A DNA stretch of 64,000 nt from Tropicimonas marinistellae (GTDB taxonomy: Bacteria; Pseudomonadota; Alphaproteobacteria; Rhodobacterales; Rhodobacteraceae). The DNA is taken from assembly GCF_001509585.1 (NCBI RefSeq), contig NZ_LNCI01000001.1, forward strand, positions 1 to 64,000, in the 5' to 3' direction. Under the pieces are notes generated by a model. It saw only the letters and a list, made by a program, of their open reading frames with translations, had not been told where the DNA came from and searched no databases. Below, one piece after another: positions 14,755-34,780 of this stretch; within the stretch, counting starts at the first letter, position 1, and each line of letters starts with the position of its first letter. The position numbers were made by a program, and so were the translations under genes.

Positions 14755-15783
14755 TCACAGGTTCTCGGATGTATAGATTTCAAAGCCCAGTGCGACGCGC
14801 TGTGCGCCGGTATCAGAGCCACCCTTCTTGACCCGGATCATTGTCTTTATCGTCTCCCGAGCGAAACGCTCCAGGGGATGCGAAATAACTAGCTTCAACG
14901 TTCCGTCGATCAGGGCTTCGCGGGTTTCGTTGAAGAGTTCGTATCCCACGGTCACGAAGTCGGTGCGTTTTTTGGCCTCTCTAAGGGCTGCGAGGGCCCC
15001 GGTGATGCCGCCCCCCGAAATGAAAAGTCCGCACAAGTCAGGGTGATCGCGAAACAAGCCCTCGACCATTTCCCGGGCGACCGCGGCGGATTCGTACGTT
15101 GCGAGCGGTTCAAGAGCGGTAAAGCCGGTGTTGTGCTCGCGGAAATAGGAGCGGAACCCGCTCTCGTTCATTTCCTGGTTTCGGTATCGATGGTTGCCGA
15201 CAAGAATGCCGATCTTTCCCGGCGTCCGAACCATGTTGTCGAAGGCCCAGGCCGCGGTCCGACCTACCATCCAGCTGTCGAGGCCCACGAAGCTGACGTT
15301 GACCCGCGCCGAAAGCGGGGCAATGAGAGCGACAACGGGTACGCCATTGCCAGCCACCGTGTCGATGGCATCGGCGACCTTCGGGTGCTGGGCAGCGACG
15401 AGCGCAACGCTGTCGCATGTCTTTCCGAGTTCAATGAGGCGCGCCGCAACGGTGTCCGGCGAAAGATCGTCAAGATACTCAAGTGTCAGGTCGACTGGGC
15501 TCTCCGAGACGTCGCGTGCTTCCTGTCGCAATGCGTTCCCGAGGTTTCGATAGAATGGGCGTCCGCTCTGCTGAAGCAGAACGCCAAGCCTGTGCGTCTC
15601 ACGTCCCTTGCGCACCGAGCTCTCGATTGTTCCAAGGCCATAGAAACCAATCTCTTCCGCGGTGGCCAAAACATGCTCGCGCGTGTGTTTTCGAACCGAA
15701 TCGGGTTGATTCAGAACGCGGTTGACCGTTGAGACTGAGACGTCGGCCGCTCTTGCCAGATCGGCGATGGTCATTCGTTTCAT
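14755..15783 (-). CDS. LacI-family regulator, paralogue 1, divergent from mocDEF
   Basis: 342 residues. HTH I-A-D-L-A-R-A-A-D-V-S-V-S-T-V-N-R-V-L-N, then a sugar-binding-type effector domain. It is strikingly similar to the regulator at 20654-21682, also 342 aa with the ATG used here: both share G-F-Y-G-L-G-T-I-E, G-R-T-A-A-W-A-F-D and N-Q-E-M-N-E-S-G-F-R-S-Y-F. The ATG at 15783 has GGTGAG upstream. It is transcribed away from mocD, and an inverted repeat in the shared promoter (15816-15847) is the probable operator. Confidence 0.92.
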   Translation of the reverse strand: MKRMTIADLARAADVSVSTVNRVLNQPDSVRKHTREHVLATAEEIGFYGLGTIESSVRKGRETHRLGVLLQQSGRPFYRNLGNALRQEARDVSESPVDLTLEYLDDLSPDTVAARLIELGKTCDSVALVAAQHPKVADAIDTVAGNGVPVVALIAPLSARVNVSFVGLDSWMVGRTAAWAFDNMVRTPGKIGILVGNHRYRNQEMNESGFRSYFREHNTGFTALEPLATYESAAVAREMVEGLFRDHPDLCGLFISGGGITGALAALREAKKRTDFVTVGYELFNETREALIDGTLKLVISHPLERFARETIKTMIRVKKGGSDTGAQRVALGFEIYTSENL

Positions 15784-15815
15784 CGGCTCACCCATGTCTT
15801 GCTGGTGCATTGTAG

Positions 15816-15952: not shown

Positions 15953-16981
15953 ATGGACGATCTTGAATACGGGACGCGCGACAAGCGCGGCAACTGGACG
16001 CCGTTGAAGCCGGCCGAACCGGCACCGATCTGGCATCGTCCGTTTAACCTCGCCAAGGTGCTCGCATGGATCCCGGAATTCCTCTGGCCCTGGAACGCGT
16101 TCCATCTCGCGACAGCGCTTCTCTGGGTGCTTGTCCTGATCCCAAGCTGGGAGAGCCTCGCCACGCTTTCGCTGGCGAATTATGCCTACCTCTACGCCCT
16201 GAACGCGGTCGCTATGTTCGTATTTCTCGGCGGCTTCGAGCTGGTCTACTATGTCAAACGCAAGCAAGAGAACCGGTTCAAGTACAACGGAAAATTTCCG
16301 GCCGATCACCCCTCTGACGTGTTCTGGTTCAAGAGCCAGAACCTCGACAACTTCCTTCGATCTTTCCTGATCACCATCCCGCTCTGGACGGTGGTCGAGA
16401 TCGTGATGCTCTGGGCCTATGCCAATACCTGGGCCACCTGGCTACCGTGGACCACCCATTGGCTCTGGCTCAGCTTCGTTATCCTGATGGCGCCTGCCGT
16501 GCATGAAGTTTATTTCTTCTTCCTGCATCGGGCCATCCACTGGCCGCCGCTCTACAAGCATATCCATTCGGTGCACCACAACTCGATCAACCCGAGCCCG
16601 TGGTCCTCGCTCAGCATGCATCCCGGGGAAGGCTTTCCCTATATGGCCGAGGCATGGCTGCACCTGCTCATCCCCTCGAACCCGGTCTGCGCCTATTTCA
16701 CACTGCATTCGGTTGGCTTTGGTGCGGTCAACGGACATTTGGGTTTCGAGAAGTTCGAACTGACCGAGAACACCACGCTCGATAGCCACGCCTATGTGCA
16801 CTACCTCCACCACAAGTACTTCGAGGTGAACTATGGCGGCGACGGTCTTGTGCCGCTCGATAAACTGTTCGGCACGTGGCACGATGGTTCCAAGGAGGCG
16901 GACGCGCGGATGAAGGAGCGCTTCCGCAAGAAGAAGGAACGCCTGAAAGCCAAGCAGGCAGCCTCGACGCCAGCGGAATAG
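15953..16981 (+). CDS. mocD: MocD-like membrane di-iron oxygenase (fatty acid hydroxylase superfamily)
   Basis: 342 residues with several membrane spans (about 40-65, 85-105, 135-160, 170-190) and the histidine clusters of the fatty acid hydroxylase/sterol desaturase family: H-R-A-I-H (about 191-195), H-S-V-H-H (about 205-209) and H-Y-L-H-H (about 283-287). These bind two irons. In Rhizobium, MocD is the oxygenase of the rhizopine O-demethylation system and takes electrons from MocE and MocF. Here it is followed by exactly those partners. It would hydroxylate an O-methyl group, releasing formaldehyde. The substrate is probably a methylated cyclitol. Confidence 0.85.
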   Translation: MDDLEYGTRDKRGNWTPLKPAEPAPIWHRPFNLAKVLAWIPEFLWPWNAFHLATALLWVLVLIPSWESLATLSLANYAYLYALNAVAMFVFLGGFELVYYVKRKQENRFKYNGKFPADHPSDVFWFKSQNLDNFLRSFLITIPLWTVVEIVMLWAYANTWATWLPWTTHWLWLSFVILMAPAVHEVYFFFLHRAIHWPPLYKHIHSVHHNSINPSPWSSLSMHPGEGFPYMAEAWLHLLIPSNPVCAYFTLHSVGFGAVNGHLGFEKFELTENTTLDSHAYVHYLHHKYFEVNYGGDGLVPLDKLFGTWHDGSKEADARMKERFRKKKERLKAKQAASTPAE

Positions 16982-17169
16982 GGCGAGCGACAGAGCGTCG
17001 GGCACGTCCGGAACGAGACAGCGAGGCACACCAGCGCACGTTCATCCACACGCATGGAAACCTGGAGCGTCCAGTGCGTTCTCGCTCCGGACGGCCCCAC
17101 AAGAACCCGCACAATGAACTTCGAACGCTCGCGAGCGCGGGCATCCGCCTGAACGAGGAGGAAAGACAA

Positions 17170-17481
17170 ATGGCAGAATGGATCGACGCCTGCGCCACCG
17201 ATGACATCGAGGAAGAGGATGTGATCCGTTTCGACCACGGGTCGCGAACCTTTATCATCGTGCGCGACCACGAGGAAAACTACTACTGCACCGACGGGCT
17301 CTGCACCCACGAAGACGTGCACCTGGCGGATGGGCTGGTCGTTGAGGCGACAATCGAATGCCCAAAGCACTCGTCGATCTTCGATGTCACCAATGGCGAC
17401 GTCGAAACGCCGCCGGCCTGTGAGAGCCTGCAGCGCTATCCGACCAGAATCGAGGGCGGCCGTGTTTTTGTGGAGATCTGA
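17170..17481 (+). CDS. mocE: MocE-like Rieske [2Fe-2S] ferredoxin
   Basis: 103 residues. The Rieske ligands are visible as C-T-H (Cys45, His47) and C-P-K-H (Cys64, His67), in the compact all-beta Rieske fold of soluble oxygenase ferredoxins. The start follows a strong GAGGAGG. It passes single electrons from the reductase to the membrane oxygenase. The 188-bp gap after mocD is open in one frame (16876 onward) but that upstream stretch is arginine- and proline-rich and not protein-like, so the gene is kept short. Confidence 0.92.
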   Translation: MAEWIDACATDDIEEEDVIRFDHGSRTFIIVRDHEENYYCTDGLCTHEDVHLADGLVVEATIECPKHSSIFDVTNGDVETPPACESLQRYPTRIEGGRVFVEI

Positions 17482-17562
17482 CATGCGCCGTTCATGTGTC
17501 CCAAGTCAGAACCGCGCACGTGCCTACCGAGCGCTGCTCCACAAGCGTTCCGGGTGCACGCC

Positions 17563-18756
17563 ATGACAGAGATCGTGATCATCGGTGCAGGCGAGTGTGG
17601 TGTGCGAGCGGCATTCAGCCTGCGAGAATACGGGCATGACGGGGCAATCACCCTGATCGGCGCCGAGTCCGCGCTGCCATACGAACGGCCGCCGCTCTCG
17701 AAAGCCATGGACGGCACGGAAAAGCCGATCCGCCCGGCGGATGCCTATGACACAGCTGGAATAGACCTGGTGTTGGGCACGGATGTTGCGCGGATCGACC
17801 CCGAGGCGCGCCGTGTGTTTCTGGGCAATGGCGTAGACCTGCCCTATCACATGCTTCTTCTGGCGACAGGCGCTCGAGCAAGGCTCTTTCCATCCCTGCG
17901 AGGCTGTCTGACCTTGCGCACGGACAGCGATGCCGAGGCCATCATGGCGCGCCTGGCGCCCAACACGCGGATCGGCATTGTCGGTGGCGGGTTCATCGGG
18001 TTGGAGCTCGCTGCGACCGCCCGCGCGACGGGCGCGAAAGTGACCGTGGTCGAAGCTGCGCCGCGCCTCCTTGCCCGCGGAGTTCCCACGGAGATTGCCT
18101 CCATCGTCGAGGCCAGGCACCGCACGGCGGGCGTTGAAATCCGCACGGGAACCGGCGTTTCCAGCGCGACGAACAGGACGATCACGCTTGCCGATGGCGA
18201 AACCCTCACCTTCGATGCCGTGATCGCTGGTGTCGGGTCCGTTCCGAACACGGAACTCGCAGCGGACGCGGGACTGGCGGTCGAAAACGGGATCCGCGTC
18301 GATGAATGGTTCAGAACGTCTGACCAACGGATCTTTGCCGCAGGAGACTGCTGCAGCTTCGTCTGGCGCGGCACACGCGTTCGCCTCGAGAGTTGGAAAG
18401 CAGCGCAGGATCAGGGCGCGTTTGTGGCCGCTGCCATGCTCGGACGCACAAACGACGGTGGATACAGGCACGTACCATGGTTCTGGTCTGACCAATACGA
18501 TCAGTCCCTTCAGGTTGCGGGGTTATTCGATGCCGACAGCCCGGTGCAACAGCGGGATGCTGGCCAGGACAAACGCATCGTATTTCAATGCGATGCGGAG
18601 AACGTGCTCGTTGCCGCGGCTGGTATCGGACCGGGTAACTCCGTCTCAAAGGACATCCGCATCCTTGAAAAACTGATTGAGCGGGGCGCCCGCGTTGATC
18701 CCAGCGTGCTGGCCGACCCATCCCTGAACCTCAAACGGCTCCTCCGGGCAGCCTGA
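17563..18756 (+). CDS. mocF: MocF-like FAD/NAD(P)H ferredoxin reductase
   Basis: 397 residues of the pyridine nucleotide-disulfide oxidoreductase fold used by oxygenase ferredoxin reductases. It has the N-terminal FAD loop I-G-A-G-E-C-G (residues 7-13), the conserved P-Y-E-R-P-P-L-S-K (about 45), the NAD(P) loop G-I-V-G-G-G-F-I-G (about 137) and the second FAD motif F-A-A-G-D-C-C (about 258). Electrons go from NAD(P)H to the MocE-type Rieske protein. The ATG at 17563 starts directly at the beta strand before the FAD loop; no strong ribosome site is seen. Confidence 0.92.
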   Translation: MTEIVIIGAGECGVRAAFSLREYGHDGAITLIGAESALPYERPPLSKAMDGTEKPIRPADAYDTAGIDLVLGTDVARIDPEARRVFLGNGVDLPYHMLLLATGARARLFPSLRGCLTLRTDSDAEAIMARLAPNTRIGIVGGGFIGLELAATARATGAKVTVVEAAPRLLARGVPTEIASIVEARHRTAGVEIRTGTGVSSATNRTITLADGETLTFDAVIAGVGSVPNTELAADAGLAVENGIRVDEWFRTSDQRIFAAGDCCSFVWRGTRVRLESWKAAQDQGAFVAAAMLGRTNDGGYRHVPWFWSDQYDQSLQVAGLFDADSPVQQRDAGQDKRIVFQCDAENVLVAAAGIGPGNSVSKDIRILEKLIERGARVDPSVLADPSLNLKRLLRAA

Positions 18757-18773
18757 CCGGAAAGGAAGAACTG

Positions 18774-19592
18774 ATGTATCACAACCGTCCTCATGTCGAA
18801 GACATCCGCGCGATGAAGAAGCGCGGGGAGAAAATCTCCATGCTCTTCGTTACCACTCCGGAGGAGGCCGCCGCGGCCTCTGCTGCCGGTATCCACATGC
18901 TGTCGATCGAGGGCCGGTACTTCGATGCGGAGATGCGGGAGGCAGCCGGTGACTGCTTCGTGCAGGTAGGCCTGCCCTATGGCGGTTGGGGGAGGTTCGA
19001 GGGACGCCCGATTGCCACCGCCGAGGATTACCTGCGCGCCGCCTTCCACTATGCCGGGATCGGCGGCGATGCGTATTACTGCGCCGCCTCCTATGACATC
19101 CAGAAAGTGCTCTGTGACAATCATATCCCGGTGGTGGGCCATATCGGGCTTATTCCGAGTTATATTACCTGGACCGGCTGGCGCGCCGTCGGCAAAACCG
19201 CAGACGAAGCCGCGGCGCTGTGGCGGCATACCCAGAAGCTGGAAGAGATCGGCGTATTCGGGGCGGAGCTGGAGGTCGTGCCGGATCGGGTGGCGAAATT
19301 CCTGACCGAGAATTCCTCCCTCGTGATGCTGGGCATGGGCGCAGGTAAATACGCTGACGCGCAATACTTGTTCACCGAGGATGTCTGCGGGTATGGCAAG
19401 AACCACAAACCGCGCCATGGCAAGGTCTACCGCAACCTTGCGCCGGAGCTGGAGCGGCTGCAGAACGAGCGTATCGCTGCGTTCCGGGAGTTTAAGGCTG
19501 ATGTGGACTCCGGCGGCTATCCGGAAGCCGAACACACTGTCCCGATCCGCGACGCGGAGTTTGAAGCTTTTCTGAAGAATGTGAAAGGCTAA
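18774..19592 (+). CDS. PanB-like (ketopantoate hydroxymethyltransferase family) protein lacking canonical PanB motifs
   Basis: 272 residues. The middle and C-terminal parts follow PanB closely: V-G-H-I-G-L-I-P-S, W-R-A-V-G-K-T, K-L-E-E-I-G-V-F-G-A-E-L-E-V-V-P and L-G-M-G-A-G. The N terminus P-H-V-E-D-I-R-A-M-K-K-R-G-E-K-I also matches. However, the family's V-G-D-S-L-G-M loop is replaced by S-I-E-G-R-Y-F and the D-M-P-F motif by V-G-L-P-Y-G, so both metal-binding aspartates are missing. PanB moves a C1 unit from methylene-tetrahydrofolate. Between a demethylase reductase and a cyclitol dehydrogenase, this protein may handle the released C1 unit or perform another aldol-type step. Family firm, reaction unknown. 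Confidence 0.75.
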   Translation: MYHNRPHVEDIRAMKKRGEKISMLFVTTPEEAAAASAAGIHMLSIEGRYFDAEMREAAGDCFVQVGLPYGGWGRFEGRPIATAEDYLRAAFHYAGIGGDAYYCAASYDIQKVLCDNHIPVVGHIGLIPSYITWTGWRAVGKTADEAAALWRHTQKLEEIGVFGAELEVVPDRVAKFLTENSSLVMLGMGAGKYADAQYLFTEDVCGYGKNHKPRHGKVYRNLAPELERLQNERIAAFREFKADVDSGGYPEAEHTVPIRDAEFEAFLKNVKG

Positions 19593-19595
19593 GCG

Positions 19596-20624
19596 ATGCT
19601 GAGGATCGGCGTTGTCGGGTATGGCACGGGTGGTCAGCATTTCCACACGCCCTTCATCGCTGCGGCGAATGGTTGTGCCCTCGCTGGGATCGTGGCGCGG
19701 GCAGAGCAGACCGTTGCCACGGCGCGGGCGGACTGGCCGGATGTGCCGATCTTTCCCAGCCTCACAGCGATGATCGAGGCGGGCGTCTGCGATGCCGTAA
19801 CGGTCACGACGCCACCGCAAACCCGCAAGGCTCTCGTGCTGGAAGCAATCGCGGCTGGGCGCCATGTCATCGCGGACAAGCCATTCGCGCCGGATTTCGA
19901 GGGCGGTATGGAGTTGGACAGGGCGGCAAAGGCGAAGGGCGTGACCCTCGGGGTCTACCAGAACCGGCGTTTCGACGCCGATCTGCAGACCCTCCGAAAG
20001 GTCATCTCCGATGGGCGCATCGGCAAGGTCTGGCGCATTCACTCCCGCATGGACCAGGACAGCCCGCAAACGCTCGAAGCCGGTCCGACTGGCGGTTTGC
20101 TGCGTGACCTCGGCTCTCATGTGGTGGACCAAATGATCTATCTGCTTGGGCCGGTTTGCGCCGTAACGGCGACGATGGACATGGTGGAACTGCCGGAGGG
20201 GCCGACGGATGCCTGTTTCACACTGACCCTTCGGCACGAAGGCGGCGCTCACAGCCACCTATCGGCCTCCAAGCTCAATCATATCGACGCGCGGGAGTTG
20301 CGCGCGTATGGCGATGAGGGGTGCTATCTGTCCCAGACCACGGATGTGCAGGCACAGGACATATTTGCCGGGAAGCGCCCGGCGGATGATCTCACCAGTT
20401 GGGGATACGAACCGGATACGAACTGGGGGACACTCTTCACCTCCGCCGGCACCGAGACCGTCCCCTCCGAACAGGGCCGCTACCACGATTACTACGAGGC
20501 CTTTGCGCGCGCCGTCCGCGATGGCACACCTCCGCCCGTCACGGCGGAAACCGGTGCGCGAACGCTGGCCGTTCTCGATGCCGCGCGCCAAAGTGCGGAG
20601 GCGGGGCACACGGTCCGGCTCTGA
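19596..20624 (+). CDS. Gfo/Idh/MocA-family oxidoreductase of the mocDEF operon
   Basis: 342 residues. The N-terminal Rossmann motif G-V-V-G-Y-G-T-G-G-Q-H-F-H and a D-K-P variant of the family E-K-P catalytic motif (about residue 95) are present, with L-R-D-L-G-S-H-V-V-D-Q giving the active-site histidine. It starts 3 bp after the PanB-like gene stop, so the two are probably coupled. It ends 29 bp before the convergent LacI gene. It would oxidise the demethylated ring or reduce a keto intermediate. MocA of the rhizopine system belongs to this family, but direct orthology is not established here. Confidence 0.88.
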   Translation: MLRIGVVGYGTGGQHFHTPFIAAANGCALAGIVARAEQTVATARADWPDVPIFPSLTAMIEAGVCDAVTVTTPPQTRKALVLEAIAAGRHVIADKPFAPDFEGGMELDRAAKAKGVTLGVYQNRRFDADLQTLRKVISDGRIGKVWRIHSRMDQDSPQTLEAGPTGGLLRDLGSHVVDQMIYLLGPVCAVTATMDMVELPEGPTDACFTLTLRHEGGAHSHLSASKLNHIDARELRAYGDEGCYLSQTTDVQAQDIFAGKRPADDLTSWGYEPDTNWGTLFTSAGTETVPSEQGRYHDYYEAFARAVRDGTPPPVTAETGARTLAVLDAARQSAEAGHTVRL

Positions 20625-20653: not shown

Positions 20654-21682
20654 TCAGACGCTTTCCGGCGTGTGGATGTCGAAATCGAACGTGACCCGGC
20701 GGGCGCCACCATCGCGACCCGCTTCCTTCGACTTCATCAGCGTCGCGACGGTCTCGCGCGCAAAGGTCTTGAGCGGATGCGAGATGACCAGGGACAAGGT
20801 GCCATCGATCAGCGCAGAACGGGTGTCGTCGAACAGTTCATAGCCGACGGTGACGAAATCGGCCCTCTTGGGCATAGCACGCAGGGCGGCAAGAGCGCCC
20901 GTGATGCCGCCGCCCGAGATATACAGGCCACACAGGTCCGGGTGGTCCGTCAGCAGCTTCTCGACATGCTCGCGGGCGACCGCCGCGGATTCATAGGTGG
21001 CAAGTGGTTCGAGCAGCGTGAAATCCGCGTTGTGCTCACGGAAGTAAGACCTGAACCCGCTTTCGTTCATCTCCTGGTTTCGGAGCCTGTGACTGCCCAC
21101 CAGAATGCCGATCTTCCCGGGGTCGCGGACCATCTTGTCAAACGCCCATGCGGCGGTCCGCCCGACTTTCCAGTTGTCGAGGCCGACAAAACTGATGTTG
21201 CCATGCGCGGAGAGCGGGCCAATGAGCGACACAACTGAAACGCCGCGATCCAGAACCGTGTCGATGGCGTCCGCCACGAGCGGATGCTGAGGTGCGACGA
21301 TGGCAATGGCCTCGTTACGCTCCCCCAATGACACGATATGGGCGGCAACCTTCTCCGGGGACAGGTCTTCGAGGAACTCCAAAGTCAGGTCGATGCTGGC
21401 TCCGGGATAAGCCTCTGCCGCTTCGGCGATGGCCTCGCCGAGAATGCGGTAGAATACGCGCGCGCTACGTTGCAACAGAACGCCAAGGCGATGCGTGGCC
21501 TGTGTCGACCTAACGGCGTGTTCGATTGTTCCAAGGCCGTAGAACCCGATTTCCTCCGCCGCTCGCAAAACACGTTCCCGCGTTGGTTCCCGAACCGAGT
21601 CCGCCTGGTTCAAGACTCGGTTGACCGTGGACACAGAGACCCCTGCGGCCTCGGCGAGATCGGGGATGGTCGGGCGTTTCAT
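20654..21682 (-). CDS. LacI-family regulator, paralogue 2, divergent from the sugar ABC transporter
   Basis: 342 residues, the same length as its paralogue at 14755-15783 and alignable end to end. Shared blocks include V-S-V-S-T-V-N-R-V-L-N-Q in the HTH, G-K-I-G-I-L-V-G and L-C-G-L-Y/F-I-S-G-G-G-I-T-G-A-L-A-A-L-R. The ATG at 21682 is chosen because the HTH starts immediately after it; the ribosome site is weak. It is read away from the ABC transporter operon, which it probably represses. The two copies flank the mocDEF block, each divergent from its own operon. Confidence 0.92.
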   Translation of the reverse strand: MKRPTIPDLAEAAGVSVSTVNRVLNQADSVREPTRERVLRAAEEIGFYGLGTIEHAVRSTQATHRLGVLLQRSARVFYRILGEAIAEAAEAYPGASIDLTLEFLEDLSPEKVAAHIVSLGERNEAIAIVAPQHPLVADAIDTVLDRGVSVVSLIGPLSAHGNISFVGLDNWKVGRTAAWAFDKMVRDPGKIGILVGSHRLRNQEMNESGFRSYFREHNADFTLLEPLATYESAAVAREHVEKLLTDHPDLCGLYISGGGITGALAALRAMPKRADFVTVGYELFDDTRSALIDGTLSLVISHPLKTFARETVATLMKSKEAGRDGGARRVTFDFDIHTPESV

Positions 21683-22068
21683 GTCATTTCGTTTCAGGAA
21701 TGTTGGCGGCTGGCATATTTTGATATGATCTTTCGACACGATGATGATTGCTGTTGATGCGAACCGTGTCAATAGTGCATGACAAATGAGCCGATAGCGC
21801 TCACTCAAGAATCGGGCGTCGGCAAACTGGGAGGAGATCCGATGGACAGCGTGGAACGGGTCATGAACCCGCGCGACAGATGGATGCGAGGGGCGCGCTG
21901 CGATGGCGATGCCTCGCGAATGCGATCGGCTCGCCCCATGCTTCGCGGTTCGGCGCTGCGCCGATGCGCGGCGTCTCTTTGCACTTTGATGCGCGAAACC
22001 GGCCGCTCGGCCGCAGTTGCAAATGTCGGGCCGCGGTGCCGCGGTCTTATCCAAGGGAGGACACCGAC
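21683..22068. other. Divergent promoter region of LacI paralogue 2 and the ABC transporter
   Basis: 386 bases with no gene supported. Near the regulator are two weak inverted repeats: CATAT/ATATG (21714-21727) and TGTCA/TGACA (21767-21784). Neither is a clear copy of the operator at 15816-15847. The half closer to the transporter is GC-rich and featureless apart from the GGGAGG ribosome site before 22069. Confidence 0.4.
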
Positions 22069-23028
22069 ATGACTATCACCAAAACGCTCGCCGCAACCGC
22101 CGTTGCGACGGTCATGGCATCCGGCGCGATGGCGCAGGACATCGCCGTGATCGGCGGGTCGGCCCAGGACGGCTTCTGGAATCTGATCAAGAAGGGCGTT
22201 GATGATGCGACGCTGGTTGTCGAGGCCAATGGCGGTACCGTCAACTACCTGCTGACGCAGAACTACGACAATTTCGGTCCCGACCTCGTAACTTTGATCG
22301 AACAGGCTGTGGCACAGGGCGTAGATGGTATCGCCATCCCGAACTGGCTGCCGGAGTCCGAAACACCGGCGCTGATCGCAGCGGCAGAGGCGGGCGTCGT
22401 CATCACCTCCTACAACGCTGGCCAGAGCGAAATGGACAAGTACGGAGCTCTGAACTACTTCGGCTCGGACGAGTACCTCGCCGGTGTCGCAGGCGGAAAA
22501 TACCTTGCCGAGCAAGGCGCCAAGAAAATTCTGTGCCACATCCAGCTCCCTGGCGCGATCAACCTCGAAACCCGCTGCGAGGGCGTGAACGACGGTGCGA
22601 CGGAAGCGGGTGCCGAAGTCTACATCGTTCGTGTCCCGGCGAACCTCGACGGCGATATGGTCGGCACCTCGGAAGCCATCAAGGCCGAACTGATCGCCGA
22701 CGATTCCATTGATGCGGTGATCAACCTGGCCGCCTGGGCCGCCGACGCCTCGGCTTCGGCCATCGAGCAACTCGGCAAGAGCGATAGCGTTATGCTGGGC
22801 ACCTTCGACATGTCCGCCTCGGTGCTGGAGCGCATTTCCAATGGCTCTCAGACCATGGCAATCGACCAGCAGCCCTACCTGCAGGGGTTCCTTGCCACCT
22901 CGACGCTCTTCGCCAATCTCAAGTTTGGCACTGAACTCGCGACCCAGCCGGTTCTCACCGGCCCCGCAATCGTCGATGCGTCCAATGTCGAATCTGCAAT
23001 CGAAGGCGTGAAGCTCGGCGCACGCTGA
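22069..23028 (+). CDS. Sugar/cyclitol ABC transporter periplasmic binding protein (RbsB-like)
   Basis: 319 residues. A Sec signal peptide (MTITKTLAATAVATVMASGAMA, cleaved before Q-D) is followed by a type I periplasmic-binding fold of the ribose/inositol class, with I-G-G-S-A-Q-D-G-F-W, Q-A-V-A-Q-G-V-D-G-I-A-I-P and D-S-I-D-A-V-I-N. GGGAGG precedes the start. It delivers the substrate to the permease and ATPase that follow. Position between mocDEF and the iol genes suggests an inositol or rhizopine-like ligand; MocB of the rhizopine system is also a binding protein of this type. The ligand is inferred only. Confidence 0.92.
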   Translation: MTITKTLAATAVATVMASGAMAQDIAVIGGSAQDGFWNLIKKGVDDATLVVEANGGTVNYLLTQNYDNFGPDLVTLIEQAVAQGVDGIAIPNWLPESETPALIAAAEAGVVITSYNAGQSEMDKYGALNYFGSDEYLAGVAGGKYLAEQGAKKILCHIQLPGAINLETRCEGVNDGATEAGAEVYIVRVPANLDGDMVGTSEAIKAELIADDSIDAVINLAAWAADASASAIEQLGKSDSVMLGTFDMSASVLERISNGSQTMAIDQQPYLQGFLATSTLFANLKFGTELATQPVLTGPAIVDASNVESAIEGVKLGAR

Positions 23029-23045
23029 GCGACCGGCACAAGACG

Positions 23046-23069
23046 GGGTCCGGCCGTTTGGCCGGGCCC
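23046..23069 (+). terminator. Intercistronic hairpin after the ABC binding-protein gene
   Basis: GGGTCCGGCC, loop GTTT, GGCCGGGCCC forms a 10-bp stem with one G-U pair in the 95-bp gap before the permease. Such a hairpin typically protects the upstream message so that binding protein exceeds permease; no T-run follows. Confidence 0.65.
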
Positions 23070-23123
23070 GACCCAAGCGGCTACACTTGACACCTTGTCG
23101 CAGATCCTCGGGAGACAGTTCAG

Positions 23124-24161
23124 ATGACCGACACGACAACAGACAGCAACGTCGCACCCGCCTCTGGTGGCATTTCCCTGGCGGAATTCTTTCGCAGCCC
23201 CGCCGCCGGGGCGTTCATGGGCTTCGTCGTGGTTTTCGTCGTCTTCGCGATTTTCGGTTTCAGCAGAAATTTTCTTTCTATTCCGGGTATTACGACCTGG
23301 GTAAACTTCGCATCCCTAGTTGGGATCATTGCCATCCCTGTGGGCTTTCTGATGATTGCGGGCGAACTCGACATCTCGACCGGTGCGGTGCTGCCAGCTG
23401 GCGCTATGACAGTTGCAATCCTGTGCGGCCACTATGAGCTTCCCGTCCTGGTTGGAATTCTCGGGGCGCTTTGCGTCGGCGCACTCGTCGGCTTCATCAA
23501 CGGTTTCATCGTTACGCGAACCGAAGTGCCGTCCTTTATCGTAACGCTCGCCACGCTCTTCGCGGTGGCGGGTCTGACGCTGTACCTGTCGATCCTCTTC
23601 ATCAACAATACGAACTCGTTCTACCACGCCCCCGACTGGGCCAAGGCACTCTTTGGCGGCAAGGTTTTCGGGTTCAACTCGTCGGTTTTCTGGTGGATTG
23701 CTCTGGTCACGGCATTCTATTTCTTCCTTCACAAGTCTCCCAAGGGAGCCTGGGTTTTTGCGCTTGGCGGAGATCAGGAAAGCGCCCGCAACGCCGGTAT
23801 CCCGGTGCGCGGATTGAAGATCGGCCTCTTCATGCTCTGCTCGATCTGTGCGGCTTTCGCCGGAGCACTCCAGGTGATCACGTTCAACTCGGCGACCAGC
23901 CAGGCAAATTTCGGACTGATCTTCAACACGATCATCTCAGTGGTCGTCGGCGGCGTGCTTTTGACCGGCGGTTTCGGGACGGTGATGGGTATCGTCTTCG
24001 GGGTTCTCACGCTCGCAATCGTCACGCAGGCGATTGGATTTACGGAGATCGACCGGAACCTATCTTTCCTCATTATCGGCGTGATGCTTCTGATCGCCGT
24101 TCTCATGAACGACACCTTCCGCAACTTGGCGACCAGCTGGTCGACATCGAAGAAGAAGTAA
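23124..24161 (+). CDS. Sugar ABC transporter permease (RbsC/FrcC-like)
   Basis: 345 residues with about nine membrane segments and the CUT2-family motif [16 protein letters not shown] (about 213-228), the coupling region touching the ATPase, followed by [12 protein letters not shown]. It forms the homodimeric inner-membrane channel of a ribose/fructose/inositol-type importer. Start 95 bp after the binding protein with GGGAG upstream. A charged 25-residue cytoplasmic N-terminus precedes the first span. Confidence 0.93.
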
Positions 24162-24172
24162 GGAGAGCACTC

Positions 24173-24997
24173 ATGTCGGATAAACAACCTGTTCTCGAAC
24201 TTCGCAATGTCGATAAGTCGTTTGGGCCCATCGACGTCCTGCATGAGATCAGCCTAAAGGTGGGCGAAGGCGAAGTACTCTGCTTGCTGGGCGACAACGG
24301 CGCGGGCAAGTCGACCCTGATCAAAACCCTCGCGGGCGTTCACCAACCCACCCGGGGCGAGATCATCATGGACGGCGCACCGACCACGTTTTCCAGCCCT
24401 CGCGAGGCGCAGGAGCGTGGAATCGCGACAGTTCACCAGTTCGGCGGCACCTATCCCCTGATGTCGATCGGGCACAACTTCTTCATGGGCGTCGAGCCAA
24501 CAAAGGGATTCTGGCCATTCAAGGTCTATGACCGCGAGAAAGCCAACCGCATCGCGGTGGAAGAGGTCCAGAAGATGGGCATCACCCGGATCACCGATGG
24601 CGACAGGCTGGTCGGTGGCCTTTCGGGCGGTGAACGCCAGTCGCTCGCAATTGCCCGTGCGGTGTATTTCGGTGCCCGGGTTCTCATCCTCGACGAACCC
24701 ACAGCCGCCCTTGGTGTAAAGCAGGCCGCGCATGTGTTGCGGATCGTGAACGAAGCCAAGCGACGCGGGCTAGCGGTGATCTTCATCACTCACCAGGTAA
24801 TGCACGCCATGGCCGTTGGCGACCATTTCGCGGTTCTGATCCGTGGCGCTATCGCGGCCGATTTCCGCAAGGGCGACAAGACCCGCGAAGAGATTGCCGA
24901 CCTGATGGCAGGCGGCGAATCCATGGCGGACCTCGAAGCCAATATCGAAGGTTACATGGAATCTCACGAAGGTCACGTTCCACCGCCCGTCCATTGA
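24173..24997 (+). CDS. Sugar ABC transporter ATP-binding protein, single domain (FrcA-like)
   Basis: 274 residues with one nucleotide-binding domain: Walker [10 protein letters not shown] (about 42-50), signature L-S-G-G-E-R-Q (about 149), Walker B L-I-L-D-E-P-T (about 170) and the switch histidine in F-I-T-H-Q. Most ribose-type ATPases are double-length (about 500 aa); this half-length form is typical of FrcBCA-type systems of alphaproteobacteria. It starts 11 bp after the permease with AGGAGAG before the ATG. Confidence 0.93.
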
Positions 24998-25092: not shown

Positions 25093-26115
25093 ATGATACG
25101 ACTTGCCATCATCGGTGCTGGCCTCATGGGGGAGGATCACGCCAAAATCGTCGCCGAAGATCTCCCGGGAGCAACGCTGCAAGTCGTTTGCGACATGAGC
25201 GGGGAGCGTGCGGCGATGGTGGCCGAGCGCTACGGTGCCGAGAGCGTTGCAACCGACGCGGAGGCCACCATTCGGCGCGACGACGTGGATGCCGTGGTCA
25301 TTGCCTCGCCGGATTTCACGCACGCGCCACTCACCATGGCCTGTATCGCGGCCGGCAAACGCGTTCTTTGCGAAAAGCCTCTCTCACAATCGCCAGCGGA
25401 ATGCGAAGCGGTGATGAAAGCGGAACAGGCGGCCGGCGCGCGCTTCGTGATGCTGGGCTTCATGCGCCGCTACGACCAATCTTATGTGGAGATGCGACGG
25501 GCATTGGTTGAGGGGAAAATCGGACGCCCTCTGATGATGCACAATTTCCACCGCAACGTGGAAACGCCGGCAACCGACTTCACCGGCGCCATGGCAATCA
25601 CCAACTCCGCGCCGCATGAGTTCGACGTCGTGCGCCATGTGCTTGGCACCGAGTTCATTTCCGTGACCGCGCACCAGCCGCGCCGGTCGGATGACCGTGT
25701 CGCCCCGGTGGTGATGGTACTTGAGACTGGTGACGGGCAGCTTGTTACCATCGAAATCAACAACAACGCAGACTATGGCTACGATGTACGCGCGGAACTC
25801 GTTGGCGAAGCAGGGTCCATCGCCATGAACAACGTCGCCTATACCCGCACGGACATGAAGCTTGCCGCCTCTACGAGCTATGACGCGGATTGGCGCGGGC
25901 GCTACCACGAAGCCTACGTCCGCCAGAACCGGGATTTCCTGCGTTTCGCCGAAACAGGCCACTTTCCGGAAATCGCTTCGGACAGTTGGGATGGCTACTG
26001 TGCAACGGTCGTTGCCGAGGCGGGTGCAGCGGCGTTGTCGGCGGGTCGGAAGCAGCCGGTTACGATGATGGACAAGCCCGAATTCTACCAAGGTCACAAG
26101 GGAGTGGCGGCATGA
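25093..26115 (+). CDS. Gfo/Idh/MocA-family oxidoreductase (IolG-like)
   Basis: 340 residues. I-I-G-A-G-L-M-G-E-D-H is the NAD loop, C-E-K-P-L-S the catalytic motif (about residue 97) and N-S-A-P-H-E-F-D-V-V-R-H the active-site helix with histidine and aspartate. G-F-M-R-R-Y-D is typical of inositol dehydrogenase relatives. It lies 95 bp after the ATPase gene and overlaps the next gene by 4 bases. It probably oxidises a cyclitol hydroxyl group with NAD; scyllo- or chiro-inositol derivatives are possible, since a more canonical IolG is at 27868-28863. Confidence 0.88.
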   Translation: MIRLAIIGAGLMGEDHAKIVAEDLPGATLQVVCDMSGERAAMVAERYGAESVATDAEATIRRDDVDAVVIASPDFTHAPLTMACIAAGKRVLCEKPLSQSPAECEAVMKAEQAAGARFVMLGFMRRYDQSYVEMRRALVEGKIGRPLMMHNFHRNVETPATDFTGAMAITNSAPHEFDVVRHVLGTEFISVTAHQPRRSDDRVAPVVMVLETGDGQLVTIEINNNADYGYDVRAELVGEAGSIAMNNVAYTRTDMKLAASTSYDADWRGRYHEAYVRQNRDFLRFAETGHFPEIASDSWDGYCATVVAEAGAAALSAGRKQPVTMMDKPEFYQGHKGVAA

Positions 26116-27867: not shown

Positions 27868-28863
27868 ATGTTGAAAGTGGGACTCCTTGGCGCTGGTCGT
27901 ATCGCCGGCGTTCACGCCATCGCAATCTCCTCCAATACCGGAAGTACGCTTGCCGCCGTGTCGGACTACTTTCCCGAGAACGCCGAGAAACTGGCGGCGC
28001 AATACGGTAGCGCGGCGCGTAGCACCGAAGACATCATTGCCGATGACAGCATCGACGCGGTACTGATAGCCACCTCGACCGACACCCATTCGGACCTGAT
28101 CGAGGCGGCGACGCAGGCAGGGAAGGCCGTGCTTTGTGAGAAGCCAGTGGACCTGAGCCTCGACCGCGCACGCGCCTGCCAGAAAGTCGCGGACAAGACT
28201 GGCAAACCGGTGATGATCGGTTTCAACCGCCGCTTCGACCCCAATTTCGGGGCATTGAAGGTGGCGTTGAAGGCCGGCGAGATCGGCAAACCCGAATTGC
28301 TTGCCATCACCTCCTTCGACCCGGCCCCGCCGCCTGTGGAGTACATCAAGGTGTCCGGCGGGCTCTTCAGGGATATGATGATCCACGACTTCGACATGTC
28401 CAGTTTCATCATGGGTGAGGCACCGGTTTCCGTTATGGCGGCGGGCTCTTCGATCGTCGATCCCGAGATCGGTGCTGCGGGCGATGTCGACACTGCGGTG
28501 GTGACGATGACCTATGCCGATGGGCGGATAGCCGTAATCAAAAATTCCCGACGGGCCGTTTACGGCTATGATCAGCGGGTGGAACTGCTGGGCTCCGAAG
28601 GACTCTTGCAGGCACAGAACATGCTGGAGAACACCGTGGTCAAGTCGACGGCCGACGGTGTGACGGGGGCAAAGCCCACCTACTTCTTCCTCGAACGCTA
28701 CATGCCGGCCTACTCGGCAGAGTGGAATGCCTTTGTCGAAGCGGTGAACTCCGGCGCACCGATGCCAGTAACGCTCGCCGATGGCATCACCGCGCTCGCA
28801 ATGGCCGAAGCCGCAACCCGGTCCGCGCAGACGGGATCGCCGGTGAGGTTGGAAGATGTCTGA
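27868..28863 (+). CDS. iolG: myo-Inositol 2-dehydrogenase (IolG)
   Basis: 331 residues, canonical size. G-L-L-G-A-G-R-I-A-G-V-H is the NAD-binding loop, C-E-K-P-V-D-L-S the catalytic lysine motif (about residue 95), G-F-N-R-R-F-D-P-N-F the signature of bacterial IolG, and R-D-M-M-I-H-D-F-D-M the active-site aspartate/histidine helix. It oxidises myo-inositol to scyllo-inosose, the first step of the pathway. It overlaps the start of iolC by 8 bases, consistent with translational coupling. Confidence 0.93.
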   Translation: MLKVGLLGAGRIAGVHAIAISSNTGSTLAAVSDYFPENAEKLAAQYGSAARSTEDIIADDSIDAVLIATSTDTHSDLIEAATQAGKAVLCEKPVDLSLDRARACQKVADKTGKPVMIGFNRRFDPNFGALKVALKAGEIGKPELLAITSFDPAPPPVEYIKVSGGLFRDMMIHDFDMSSFIMGEAPVSVMAAGSSIVDPEIGAAGDVDTAVVTMTYADGRIAVIKNSRRAVYGYDQRVELLGSEGLLQAQNMLENTVVKSTADGVTGAKPTYFFLERYMPAYSAEWNAFVEAVNSGAPMPVTLADGITALAMAEAATRSAQTGSPVRLEDV

Positions 28864-30766
28864 GCATCTGGACCTGATCACGATTGGCCGGTCGTCGGTT
28901 GATCTCTACGGGGCCCAGGTCGGCGGGCGACTGGAGGACATGGGATCCTTCGACAAGTATATCGGTGGATCCCCCACCAATATCGCCTGCGGAACCGCGC
29001 GGCTTGGGCTGAAATCGGCCGTGATCACGGGCGTTGGTGACGAGCATATGGGGCGTTTCATCCGGGAACAGCTCGCGCGCGAAGGGGTGAATATTGAGGG
29101 TGTGAAGACCGACCCCGACCGTCTGACGGCGCTGGTGCTGCTGGGCATTCGCGACCAGGAGCAGTTTCCGCTGATCTTCTATCGCGAGAATTGCGCCGAC
29201 ATGGGTCTGACGGTGACGGACATCGACCCGAATTTCATCCGTCGTGCGCGCGCGGTTGTGGCCACCGGAACGCACCTGTCGCACCCCCAGGTGGAGGCCG
29301 CCACGATCAAGGCGCTGGAGATCGCGCGAGAGGCGGGGCTGCAGACCGCGCTCGACATCGACTACCGCCCCAATCTCTGGGGCGTGGCCGGGCACGGCGA
29401 GGGAGAAAGCCGCTTCGTCGAGAGCGAGGCCGTCACGGCAAAGCTTCAATCGACGCTGCATCTCTTCGATCTGATCGTGGGCACCGAAGAAGAGTTTCAC
29501 ATCGCGGGTGGGTCTACCGACACACTGGAGGCGCTGAAGGCGGTGCGCGCTGTCTCCGGGGCAACGCTTGTCTGCAAGCGCGGTGCGCTTGGTGCGGTGG
29601 CCTTCGAAGGGGAAGTCCCCGGCTCGCTTGATGACGGTCAAACGGGCCCCGGCTTCCCGATCGAGGTCTTCAACGTGCTCGGCGCGGGAGACGGGTTCAT
29701 GTCCGGTTTGCTCAAGGGCTGGCTCGATGGCGAAGATTGGCCCACGGCGCTCAAATACGCCAACGCCTGCGGCGCCTTTGCCGTGAGCCGGCATGGCTGC
29801 ACGCCGGCCTATCCGAGCTGGGAAGAACTTCAATTCTTCTTCAAACGAGGAATCAAGCGGCCCGATCTGCGGCATGACACGGAGTTGGAGCAGGTGCATT
29901 GGGCAACCAATCGGGCGGGCGACTGGCCTGAGATGCGCGTTTTTGCCTTCGACCATCGCAGCCAGATGGAAGAGATGGACGGGGCTACGCCGGAGGCCAT
30001 AGGACGCTTCAAGAAACTATGCCTCGAGGCGGCCTTGGCTGTGCAGAACGGGGAGGGCGGCTTCGGTATCCTGTGCGACGGGCGCCTTGGCCGCGACGCA
30101 CTCTACAAGGCCACCGGGACCGGGCTCTGGATCGGGCGACCGGTGGAATGGCCGGGTTCTCGCCCCCTGACTTTGGAGCCCCAGATCGGGCCGGATTACG
30201 GGCGGTTGAACGAGTGGCCACGCGACCAGGTCGTGAAATGCCTTTGCTTCTGTCACCCGGACGACGGCGCGGATATGTGGGCAACCCAGGAACAGACGGT
30301 CCTGCGCCTCTTCGCGGCCGCGCGGCGCAATGGGCTGGAGTTCCTGCTTGAGGTGATCCCCTCCAAATGTGGACCCGTGGATGACGAGACCACGCCGAGA
30401 GTGATACAGCGTTTCTACGATCTGGGTGTCTGTCCCGATTGGTGGAAGCTGGAGCCGTTCACGACCGAAGCATCCTGGGAAGGCGCGGTTGCTGCCATCG
30501 AGCGCAACGACCCGCGCACCCGCGGCATCGTGGTGCTGGGGCTCGATGCGCCACAGGAAGAGCTTGCCGCGAGCTTCGCGCTGGCCGCCCGGCAACCGCT
30601 GGTCAAGGGCTTCGCCGTAGGCCGGACGATCTTCGGCAATGCAGCCCGCAACTGGATGGCGGGCGCCATTTCCGATGGCGAGGCCGTGGCCGAGATGACA
30701 GGGAATTACCAACGGCTTTGCGGCATCTGGGATGCGGCAAGGAAAGCTGCGAGGAGCGAAGCATGA
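28856..30766 (+). CDS. iolC: IolC kinase fused to DUF2090 domain
   Basis: 636 residues in two parts. Residues 1-325 are a PfkB-type 5-dehydro-2-deoxygluconokinase (G-G-S-P-T-N-I-A, and G-A-G-D-G-F-M-S-G with catalytic aspartate). Residues about 335-636 are a DUF2090 domain (R-V-F-A-F-D-H-R-S-Q, G-I-L-C-D-G-R-L-G, W-K-L-E-P, V-L-G-L-D-A-P) related to class I aldolases, thought to cleave the phosphorylated product. This fusion is the usual arrangement in alphaproteobacterial inositol operons. It makes a separate IolJ unnecessary here, unlike cassette A. Its stop overlaps the iolD start (ATGA). Confidence 0.95.
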   Translation: MSEHLDLITIGRSSVDLYGAQVGGRLEDMGSFDKYIGGSPTNIACGTARLGLKSAVITGVGDEHMGRFIREQLAREGVNIEGVKTDPDRLTALVLLGIRDQEQFPLIFYRENCADMGLTVTDIDPNFIRRARAVVATGTHLSHPQVEAATIKALEIAREAGLQTALDIDYRPNLWGVAGHGEGESRFVESEAVTAKLQSTLHLFDLIVGTEEEFHIAGGSTDTLEALKAVRAVSGATLVCKRGALGAVAFEGEVPGSLDDGQTGPGFPIEVFNVLGAGDGFMSGLLKGWLDGEDWPTALKYANACGAFAVSRHGCTPAYPSWEELQFFFKRGIKRPDLRHDTELEQVHWATNRAGDWPEMRVFAFDHRSQMEEMDGATPEAIGRFKKLCLEAALAVQNGEGGFGILCDGRLGRDALYKATGTGLWIGRPVEWPGSRPLTLEPQIGPDYGRLNEWPRDQVVKCLCFCHPDDGADMWATQEQTVLRLFAAARRNGLEFLLEVIPSKCGPVDDETTPRVIQRFYDLGVCPDWWKLEPFTTEASWEGAVAAIERNDPRTRGIVVLGLDAPQEELAASFALAARQPLVKGFAVGRTIFGNAARNWMAGAISDGEAVAEMTGNYQRLCGIWDAARKAARSEA

Positions 30767-32592
30767 GCGAGACGATCCGACTGACGGCGGCGCAGGCGCT
30801 GGTCCGCTATCTCGGTGCGCAGATGACCGAAGACGGCGTGCCATTCATCGCCGGGTGCTGGGCGATCTTCGGCCATGGCAACGTGGCCGGGCTTGGCGAG
30901 GCGCTCTATCACGCGCAGGACACACTGCCGACCTATCGAGGTCATAACGAACAGACGATGGCTCATGCGGCCATAGCCTATTCGAAGCAGCTGCGCCGCA
31001 CGCGCGCAATGGCGGTCACCTCGTCTATCGGACCCGGGGCCACCAATATGGTCACCGCAGCAGCGCTGGCGCATGTGAACCGACTGCCGGTGCTGCTGCT
31101 GCCCGGCGACGTCTTCGCGAACCGCGGGCCTGACCCGGTCCTGCAACAGATCGAGGATTTCGGCGATGGTACCGTTTCGGCCAACGACTGCTTCAAACCG
31201 GTCAGCCGCTATTTCGATCGCATCACGAGGCCCGAGCAGCTCCTGACCGCCTTGCCGCGGGCCTTCCGTACCATGACCGACCCGGCCGATTGTGGACCGG
31301 TTACGCTGGCCTTCTGCCAGGACGTGCAGGCCGAGGCATTTGACTATCCCGAGAGCTTCTTCGAGCCCAAGACGTGGCGCATTCGCCGTCCGCAGCCCGA
31401 TCCGGTCGAGATCGAGGCTGCCGCAGCACTGATCCGCAGCGCGAAACGCCCGGTGATCGTCGCCGGCGGTGGCGTGCATTACTCCGGCGCCTACGAGGCG
31501 CTGGAGTTCTTCGCCAAGACGCATCGGATTCCGGTCGCCGAGACTCAGGCCGGCAAGTCGGCTCTGCCCTGGGACCATCCGCTGAATCTCGGCCCCATCG
31601 GCGTCACCGGCGGCGAGCCCGCGAATGGCGTCTGCGCCGAGGCCGACGTGATCCTCGGTGTCGGCACGCGGTTCCAGGACTTCACCACCGGGTCCTGGGG
31701 ACTATTTGCCAATCTCGAACGCAAGCTCATCAGCCTGAACGTCGCGGCCTATGATGCAGCAAAACATGGCGCAGAGCCGATCTGCGCCGATGCCTGTGCT
31801 GGGCTTGAGGCACTCTGGAAGACGCTTGGCGACTACAAGGCCGACGTACCGGCCGAGGCGCTCAAGCCCGACTGGTTTGCCAAGGTCGACCCACTGACCG
31901 ACGCTCCAGAAGGCAATGAACTCCCGACGGATATGCAGGTGATTGGAGCAGTGCAGCGTGCGGCTGGCGAGAACACCGTTGCCATGTGTGCCGCTGGCAC
32001 CATGCCAGGCGAGTTGCACAAGCTCTGGAAGGCCGGGCGGCCGGGCTCCTACCACATGGAATACGGCTTCTCCTGCATGGGCTACGAGATTGCCGGCGCC
32101 ATGGGCATCAAGATGGCGGAGCCGGACCGTGACGTGATCTGCTTCACCGGAGACGGCACCTATATGATGGCCAATTCGGAGATGGCGACAGCCGCCATGA
32201 TGGGCATCTCCTTCACCGTCGTTGTCACGGACAATCGCGGCTTCGGTTGCATCAACCGGCTGCAAATGGGCTGCGGCGGCGCGGAATTCAACAACCTGCT
32301 CGATCACACGATTCACGAGGCGCCTTCGGCCATCGACTTCGCCAAACATGCCGAAGCGATGGGCGCAACAAGCGTCAAGGTCGGTTCGATTGCCGAACTG
32401 GAGGAGGCGCTGGCGAAGCGGGCCGGCATCAAGGGGCCCTATGTGATCGTCATCGACACCGACCCATATCCGTCTACGCCCCATGGCGGAACGTGGTGGG
32501 AGGTTGGCGTGCCCGAGGTCTCCGAACGGGCAGAAGTCAACGCCGCCCGTGCTGGCTACGTCGAAAACAAGAAGACGCAAAGGGCGGACTGA
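30763..32592 (+). CDS. iolD: 3D-(3,5/4)-trihydroxycyclohexane-1,2-dione hydrolase (IolD)
   Basis: 609 residues, a thiamine-diphosphate enzyme of the acetolactate-synthase fold. The activating glutamate lies in Y-R-G-H-N-E-Q-T-M (about residue 63). The ThDP/magnesium motif is G-D-G-T-Y-M-M-A-N through D-N-R-G-F (about 465-495). It opens the six-membered ring to give 5-deoxy-glucuronate, the committed step of inositol breakdown. This is the only iolD in the window, so both inositol cassettes must rely on it unless another copy exists elsewhere. Confidence 0.96.
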   Translation: MSETIRLTAAQALVRYLGAQMTEDGVPFIAGCWAIFGHGNVAGLGEALYHAQDTLPTYRGHNEQTMAHAAIAYSKQLRRTRAMAVTSSIGPGATNMVTAAALAHVNRLPVLLLPGDVFANRGPDPVLQQIEDFGDGTVSANDCFKPVSRYFDRITRPEQLLTALPRAFRTMTDPADCGPVTLAFCQDVQAEAFDYPESFFEPKTWRIRRPQPDPVEIEAAAALIRSAKRPVIVAGGGVHYSGAYEALEFFAKTHRIPVAETQAGKSALPWDHPLNLGPIGVTGGEPANGVCAEADVILGVGTRFQDFTTGSWGLFANLERKLISLNVAAYDAAKHGAEPICADACAGLEALWKTLGDYKADVPAEALKPDWFAKVDPLTDAPEGNELPTDMQVIGAVQRAAGENTVAMCAAGTMPGELHKLWKAGRPGSYHMEYGFSCMGYEIAGAMGIKMAEPDRDVICFTGDGTYMMANSEMATAAMMGISFTVVVTDNRGFGCINRLQMGCGGAEFNNLLDHTIHEAPSAIDFAKHAEAMGATSVKVGSIAELEEALAKRAGIKGPYVIVIDTDPYPSTPHGGTWWEVGVPEVSERAEVNAARAGYVENKKTQRAD

Positions 32593-33497: not shown

Positions 33498-33504
33498 TTT
33501 CACC

Positions 33505-33520
33505 GGCCCCGTCCGGGGCC
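33505..33520 (+). terminator. Short hairpin between iolE and the PhyH-type gene
   Basis: GGCCCC, loop GTCC, GGGGCC: a 6-bp all-GC stem in the 53-bp gap. Together with the hairpin at 34756-34780 it brackets the dioxygenase gene. Confidence 0.45.
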
Positions 33521-33550
33521 ACACCGCAAGCCATGCCAACGGAGGTTAAC

Positions 33551-34732: not shown

Positions 34733-34755
34733 TACGGCGGATCGGATCATCAACA

Positions 34756-34780
34756 CCGGCCGCCCTTCCGGGGCGGCCGG
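34756..34780 (+). terminator. Intercistronic hairpin between the PhyH-type gene and iolB
   Basis: CCGGCCGCCC, loop TTCCG, GGGCGGCCGG: a perfect 10-bp stem in the 64-bp gap, ending 16 nt before the iolB start. No T-run follows. Confidence 0.6.

Follow-up and report, generated by a model that had tools for sequence, protein, structure and literature searches.

Why should a relative of PanB, the ketopantoate hydroxymethyltransferase, be encoded together with an oxygenase system of the type known from rhizopine demethylation? This question is raised by a stretch of 64,000 nucleotides (nt) from Tropicimonas marinistellae (contig NZ_LNCI01000001.1, positions 1 to 64,000; hereafter the window). In this stretch, five genes extend from a MocD-position gene to a dehydrogenase gene at 15953-20624, all on the plus strand and as an earlier note on this DNA had described them. 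They are:

15953..16981, plus strand, MocD-position membrane di-iron oxygenase of the FA_hydroxylase/sterol desaturase family (PF04116, 65.9 bits)
17170..17481, plus strand, MocE Rieske-type [2Fe-2S] ferredoxin (TIGR02377, 140.6 bits, cut-off 136.15)
17494..18756, plus strand, MocF ferredoxin reductase (Pyr_redox_2 PF07992 and Reductase_C PF14759)
18774..19592, plus strand, PanB-like protein of a metal-less subfamily (Pantoate_transf PF02548), proposed to be a tetrahydrofolate (THF)-dependent enzyme capturing formaldehyde or hydroxymethyl
19596..20624, plus strand, Gfo/Idh/MocA dehydrogenase (PF01408, PF02894; IolG 100.7 bits, below the cut-off of 355)

Many oxidative demethylases release toxic formaldehyde. 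The answer that we regard as moderately probable is that the PanB-like protein captures formaldehyde, or a hydroxymethyl group, on THF. That it has some role in the handling of formaldehyde or one-carbon (C1) units is clearly more likely. The operon itself probably removes methyl groups from inositol-like sugars. The gaps between its genes are 188 nt (MocD-MocE), 12 nt (MocE-MocF), 17 nt (MocF-PanB-like) and 3 nt (PanB-like-dehydrogenase). Thus, the tight spacing that the earlier note assigned to the last three genes extends to the last four.

The PanB-Like Protein and Canonical PanB

Judged from its sequence, the gene at 18774-19592 is a paralog of PanB and not an ordinary PanB. Its product shares PF02548 (116.8 bits, cut-off 28.7, matched only from profile position 78) and the PanB fold with PanB (PDB 3vav and 1m3u). 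The top matches found with Foldseek and VIA were also PanB, and the TIM-barrel fold is that common to phosphoenolpyruvate (PEP) mutase/isocitrate lyase enzymes. The scores against the panB models were below their cut-offs (83 vs. 207.55 for TIGR00222 and 106 vs. 272 for PRK00311). Moreover, a separate canonical PanB of 345 bits is encoded elsewhere in the same genome.

The alignment and tree comprised 140 subfamily rows and 30 canonical or intermediate PanBs, after 34 of 204 rows had been removed as near-copies. A fully supported branch parted the PanB-like clade from the 30 canonical or intermediate sequences. We take Asp45 and Asp84 of PanB to be metal ligands, Lys112 to position the 2-oxoacid and Glu181 to be catalytic. 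Lys112 was found in 30/30 canonical or intermediate rows, Asp84 and Glu114 in 23/30 each, and none of the three in any of the 140 subfamily rows. Asp at the Asp45 column was found in 30/30 and 15/140 rows, respectively, and the window protein possesses Gly47 and Gly66 at the Asp45 and Asp84 columns. In contrast, His136 (29/30 canonical or intermediate rows; H123 of the window protein) and Glu181 (30/30; E167) were kept in all 140 subfamily rows. H123, E165, E167, and H215 were invariant in these 140 rows, of which Glu165 and His215 are new invariants. Different from PanB, the PanB-like proteins also lack an N-terminal loop and their genes are located in catabolic operons. Thus, the clade appears to have lost the 2-oxoacid site and to have retained the His/Glu pair. 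The earlier description of the fourth gene as an atypical PanB relative agrees with the separate genomic PanB, the missed cut-offs, the lost residues and the clade of its own, and the identity with ordinary PanB that the earlier note had named as refuting its idea does not apply.

Another group of PanB paralogs (L265-L267, also L019, L022, and L027) keeps the GDS motif, whereas Asp84 and Glu114 are absent from it, with VSMPYG and KLQG in most members. Tandem pairs of PanB-like genes were found at L046:8232-9922, where the pair adjoins two PhyH-type oxygenase matches, and at L264:6673-8499.

Association With Oxygenases and MocE

The surroundings of the PanB-like genes were surveyed in three genome scans (class, phylum, and family) that were chosen regardless of neighbors and whose E-value limits favor members resembling the query. 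Scoring with a limit of 4 kb covered 85 subfamily open reading frames (ORFs) as well as 37 canonical or intermediate stretches. The partial match G668:C20, which contains a stop, was left out, and for G724 the second of the tandem copies was scored under L264, where it is located. An oxygenase or MocE was found near 73/85 subfamily ORFs vs. 5/37 canonical or intermediate stretches; oxygenases of four kinds accounted for 66/85 and MocE for 50/85 of the former. The five matching canonical or intermediate stretches included three weak Rieske matches (27-38 bits), one weak PhyH match (60 bits) and one fragment. At 100 bits or more (80 for MocE), the counts were 73/85 vs. 1/37, the latter being a split-ORF fragment: L230 was split into two ORFs, and its 60-bit piece fell into the canonical count.

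Among the 149 family genomes, 32 of the 48 MocE genes had a PanB-like gene within 4 kb and 32 of the 50 PanB-like genes had a MocE neighbor. Both genes were present in 26 genomes, a PanB-like gene alone in 6, MocE alone in 8 and neither in 109 (Fisher p 1.4e-16, phylogeny ignored). The pairing of MocE with PanB-like genes is not chance. MocE was also found in 70/80 named loci, within 8 kb on each side, a biased set since these loci are the nearest relatives picked by likeness to the window protein. For 7 of the 10 named loci without MocE, less than 1.8 kb of upstream sequence was available.

The partners of the PanB-like proteins include FA_desaturase, FA_hydroxylase, Rieske ring-hydroxylating-type oxygenase, and PhyH proteins. 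Distant relatives linked with FA_desaturase include those of two small genomes of ~1.4 Mb. On the tree, 46 rows were associated only with desaturases, 40 only with MocD/FA_hydroxylases, 4 only with PhyH, and 1 only with Rieske oxygenase, and the oxygenase type changed at least 13 times. These changes point to a shared C1 product. The common feature of these varied oxygenases could be the release of C1 from a methyl group, in which case each of them would act as a demethylase.

The Rhizopine moc Locus

L330 of Sinorhizobium meliloti RCAM1115 and L327 of Phyllobacterium zundukense Tri-48 are loci with the classical moc order, in which mocA-like and mocB-like genes and a divergent mocR are followed by mocD-mocE-mocF. 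The mocD gene is in two frames and unannotated in L330 (CP050559.1) and open in L327. MocR of RCAM1115 is above the rhizopine-MocR cut-off (756.5 vs. 650 bits), and the moc-box direct repeat (PMC10107442) was matched at 11/11 and 11/11 positions between its mocR and mocD. In RCAM1115, mocF is followed by a PanB-like gene (380 bits with the subfamily profile) and then by purU (329.5 vs. 285.95).

When the plasmid collection was searched for this rhizopine MocR (E ≤1e-150), 14 records were obtained. All 14 contained a PanB-like gene ~3 kb downstream on the same strand (as a two-piece match in three of them), with purU directly 3′ of it. The position of purU was based on match positions for eight Sinorhizobium records, on locus inspection for five and on tblastn for L336. 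MocE was located between MocR and the PanB-like gene in all eight records inspected of the 14. The association of mocDEF with PanB-like genes across genomes, whose absence the earlier note had named as a reason to abandon its idea, was therefore found to be strong (73/85 ORFs, 32/48 MocE genes and 14/14 MocR records).

Like L330, the locus L336 (CP050564.1) is damaged: its mocR is a partial match, and its PanB-like gene and purU are each in two pieces. S. meliloti BL225C possesses a rhizopine locus and, on a different replicon, one further PanB-like gene. In S. meliloti ml28, a pSymB cluster contains LacI, MocDEF, and a PanB-like gene, with neither purU nor ring-catabolic genes adjoining. This cluster probably corresponds to SM_b20817-20820, which is listed in PMC11387232.

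The rhizopine operon was described as mocDEF only (PMC10107442, PMC5132102). The available text of these two papers mentions neither the PanB-like gene nor purU, and the synteny figure S1 of PMC10107442 may show both. Similar to the rhizopine mocDEF operon of S. meliloti and Rhizobium leguminosarum, the window operon encodes proteins of the MocE and MocF types and has the PanB-like gene after mocF. Different from it, the window operon has a PF04116 MocD, LacI in place of MocR, and no adjoining purU. MocD of the rhizopine loci is annotated as fatty acid desaturase family, whereas that of the window matches PF04116 only. The label MocDEF given to the window genes in the earlier note thus holds for MocE (TIGR02377) and MocF, but not for MocD, which is best regarded as a functional stand-in for rhizopine MocD, with orthology not implied.

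Linkage With purU and folD

Linkage with folate genes was also found outside the rhizopine loci. For instance, the gene order in Neotabrizicola is mocE, TIM-barrel, mocF, PanB-like, folD, purU, and iolG. The identities of folD and purU were confirmed, and no MocD was found within the retrieved stretch. Among the 80 named loci, purU was present in 15 and folD in 8, all of which also contained purU. The linkage with purU/folD changed at least nine times on the tree (140 rows, 10 positives), suggesting that it arose or was lost repeatedly. Neither gene is beside the window operon.

The cassette with purU and folD was also observed in Leptothrix and Sphaerotilus (loci L124 and L139). Both genera presumably lie outside Alphaproteobacteria, and the cassette in them suggests horizontal transfer.

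Fate of Formaldehyde

Two usual formaldehyde routes were not evident in the genome of T. marinistellae, as no Fae match was found in it and no class III alcohol dehydrogenase scored above the NCBI cut-off (best 208 vs. 544 bits). A PurU-like gene is present elsewhere in this genome. Spontaneous reaction of formaldehyde with THF is far too slow, and an organism dependent on it would double in more than 3 weeks (PMC7073904), which suggests a need for an enzyme. He et al. (2020) considered that PanB might catalyze this reaction promiscuously and that a Fae variant might use THF, and they discussed that such an enzyme could have evolved or be evolved (PMC7073904). They also built Escherichia coli strains growing by formaldehyde-THF condensation, which are usable as a test system (PMC7073904).

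In the nicotine N-demethylation module MABO-folD-purU, the methyl group becomes methylene-THF and then passes through FolD and PurU to formate (PMC6214936). The downstream fate of the methyl group is the same as that proposed for the PanB-like clade. However, MABO loads THF itself, whereas the oxygenase and the proposed THF loader would be separate proteins in the PanB-like case. Fae and Gfa speed the condensation of formaldehyde with tetrahydromethanopterin and glutathione, respectively (PMC8879981). Their role is like that proposed for the PanB-like clade, but their carriers are different. Both families are presumably unrelated to the PanB-like protein. Our search of the open-access literature found no enzyme that loads formaldehyde onto THF, a gap that the clade would fill if the proposal is true. 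The same literature contained no paper joining PanB with MocE, demethylation, or formaldehyde, and one may exist in print.

The idea that MocDE loci lacking a PanB-like gene carry a substitute formaldehyde gene was dropped, as only 2 of 27 such MocE loci did so: that of Rhizobium CIAT894 with a class III alcohol dehydrogenase and that of Nitratireductor with purU. In a MocDEF cluster that lacks the PanB-like gene, the TIM-barrel gene is followed by one encoding S-(hydroxymethyl)glutathione dehydrogenase (L305:10523-11650; 590 bits vs. a cut-off of 544).

Proposed Function and Alternatives

MocD, receiving electrons from reduced nicotinamide adenine dinucleotide (NADH) via MocF and MocE, would hydroxylate the O-methyl group of a cyclitol-like substrate. 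As the family and the rhizopine precedent suggest, the hemiacetal would collapse to the free ring and formaldehyde. The PanB reaction consists of two halves, in which C1 is taken off 5,10-methylene-THF and placed onto a metal-bound 2-oxoacid. The PanB-like protein would convert formaldehyde (or R-O-CH2OH) and THF to 5,10-methylene-THF, which is the folate half-reaction of PanB run as capture without the 2-oxoacid half. FolD would oxidize 5,10-methylene-THF to 10-formyl-THF and PurU would release formate; in the window organism, these two steps would rely on folD/purU copies at other places in the genome. By way of the dehydrogenase, the demethylated ring would reach the adjacent iol pathway. 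Capture by the folate half is the simplest reading because the 2-oxoacid site is lost, the His/Glu pair is kept, an oxygenase lies upstream and PurU/FolD lie downstream in part of the loci. From these features we infer the folate binding, catalysis, and reaction direction of the PanB-like protein.

The capture of formaldehyde or methylene-folate, suggested in the earlier note, has gained in plausibility from the purU/folD linkage, the rhizopine operon and the swapping of oxygenases, although the activity itself is still a prediction. In its widest form, the proposal is that the clade is the THF counterpart of Fae/Gfa, a PanB-derived enzyme that condenses formaldehyde (or hydroxymethyl) with THF, has lost its 2-oxoacid site and serves demethylases of several unrelated folds, and that the rhizopine operon consists of mocDEF, the clade gene, and purU, sometimes with folD. 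We consider this whole as likely to be right as wrong. If true, it would complete the account of what becomes of the methyl group when rhizopine is catabolized and correct the label 3-methyl-2-oxobutanoate hydroxymethyltransferase, found in many retrieved records, as a mis-annotation. It would also give synthetic methylotrophy a route by which formaldehyde enters folate metabolism directly.

Several results weigh against capture on THF. In the family genomes, 16 of 48 MocE genes had no PanB-like neighbor within 4 kb, so MocDE can manage without a linked copy. Similarly, 12 of the 85 subfamily ORFs had no recognized oxygenase or MocE within this distance. Two of them are at contig ends, and no oxygenase was named among the one to three neighbors scanned for each of the other ten; at the partnerless loci L224 and L258 an oxygenase-family match lies farther away than 4 kb. 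In the wide survey, purU/folD occurred in only 3/84 loci. Linkage of purU to MocE was found in 15/127 loci with a PanB-like gene and in 1/27 without, which is no clear difference. Because the sets of named and unnamed loci overlap, some places entered this comparison twice; L034 and L223, for instance, seem to represent a single plasmid. In Nitratireductor, mocDEF and purU have no PanB-like gene between them, and THF may thus be loaded without the PanB-like protein. The 14 rhizopine records represent about three lineages. Of five rhizopine loci searched for folD, this gene is an open frame only in L327, is absent from L330 and is a shortened match without a full open frame in L331, L332, and L336. 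Finally, deletion of both panB and ltaE in E. coli left growth by formaldehyde-THF condensation unchanged (PMC7073904), suggesting that the ancestral enzyme has no such side activity there.

A C1 product is the sole thing that the different oxygenase partners would share, and this would also suit a protein that handles formaldehyde off folate, either as a hemiacetal lyase or by condensing it with, for example, a 2-oxoacid as the acceptor. PanB ancestry includes an aldol half-reaction. The PurU and FolD encoded beside the clade in part of the loci, however, act on folate. Moreover, the residues that we take to be the Mg ligands and to position a 2-oxoacid are gone (Lys112 and Asp84 in 0/140 rows), and we consider this possibility unlikely. 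That the protein converts the demethylated substrate by an aldol, retro-aldol, or isomerase reaction is more doubtful still. This would fit the TIM-barrel fold, which PEP mutase/isocitrate lyase enzymes also have, and the cyclitol-type dehydrogenase gene that adjoins the PanB-like gene in the window. However, oxygenases and neighboring catabolic genes vary widely while H123, E165, E167, and H215 stay constant in 140/140 rows, and the S. meliloti pSymB cluster has no ring-catabolic genes adjoining. The aldol-type reaction on the ring put forward in the earlier note is disfavored by the same differences among neighboring genes and the same cluster.

With the known catalytic metal site lost, the PanB-like protein might also be non-catalytic, either as an assembly factor of the oxygenase or as a sensor or scavenger of formaldehyde. 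The new invariant polar residues E165 and H215 at barrel positions would favor catalysis, and a non-catalytic role appears improbable. The PF02548 match and PanB fold are what an ordinary ketopantoate hydroxymethyltransferase would possess. Given the canonical PanB of 345 bits elsewhere, the missed panB cut-offs, the lost metal ligands and the separate clade, it is very hard to believe that the PanB-like protein is one.

Genes of the Window Operon and Its Surroundings

The translated MocD-position protein contains the His boxes HRAIH, HSVHH, and HH, which we take to be the di-iron motif. HcaD-type reductases were the top profile match of MocF, yet below cut-off. The window MocF is 51% identical to that of S. 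meliloti (locus L033), and a later ATG near 17563 may be its true start. The dehydrogenase at 19596..20624, whose best-hit relatives were found in 16/80 named loci, possibly acts on the demethylated cyclitol. The features around the operon are:

14755..15810, minus strand, LacI-family regulator divergent from the operon (PF00356, PF13407)
20654..21727, minus strand, second LacI-family regulator
21880..24997, plus strand, sugar-type ATP-binding cassette (ABC) transporter (binding protein, permease, ATPase) in a conserved cassette
25093..26115, plus strand, IolG-like dehydrogenase of the cassette (NF052679, 262.5 bits, cut-off 540)
27868..35606, plus strand, stretch with inositol-catabolic genes
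27868-28863, plus strand, iolG (424.5 bits, NCBI cut-off 355)
28856-30766, plus strand, iolC/aldolase fusion (710.2 bits, NCBI cut-off 600)
34782-35606, plus strand, iolB (338.8 bits, NCBI cut-off 205)

LacI relatives (36-55% identity) of the divergent regulator at 14755..15810 were found 5′ of the oxygenase genes in the loci L033 and L035-L039. The three transporter proteins were 50, 52, and 79% identical to those of annotated transporter genes in locus L034, and transporter relatives were present in 61-65 of the 80 named loci. The best-hit relatives of the IolG-like dehydrogenase at 25093..26115 were in 28/80. Given the transporter, the IolG-like dehydrogenase and the inositol-catabolic genes 3′ of the operon, a methylated inositol is the natural guess for its substrate. 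The inositol-catabolic stretch is likely the destination of the demethylated ring.

The genome of T. marinistellae also contains a second pair of MocE and FA_desaturase (L297, G000:C34:83944-84246). This pair, which has no PanB-like neighbor, lies near a TIM-barrel gene and the genes for a sugar-type binding protein and permease.

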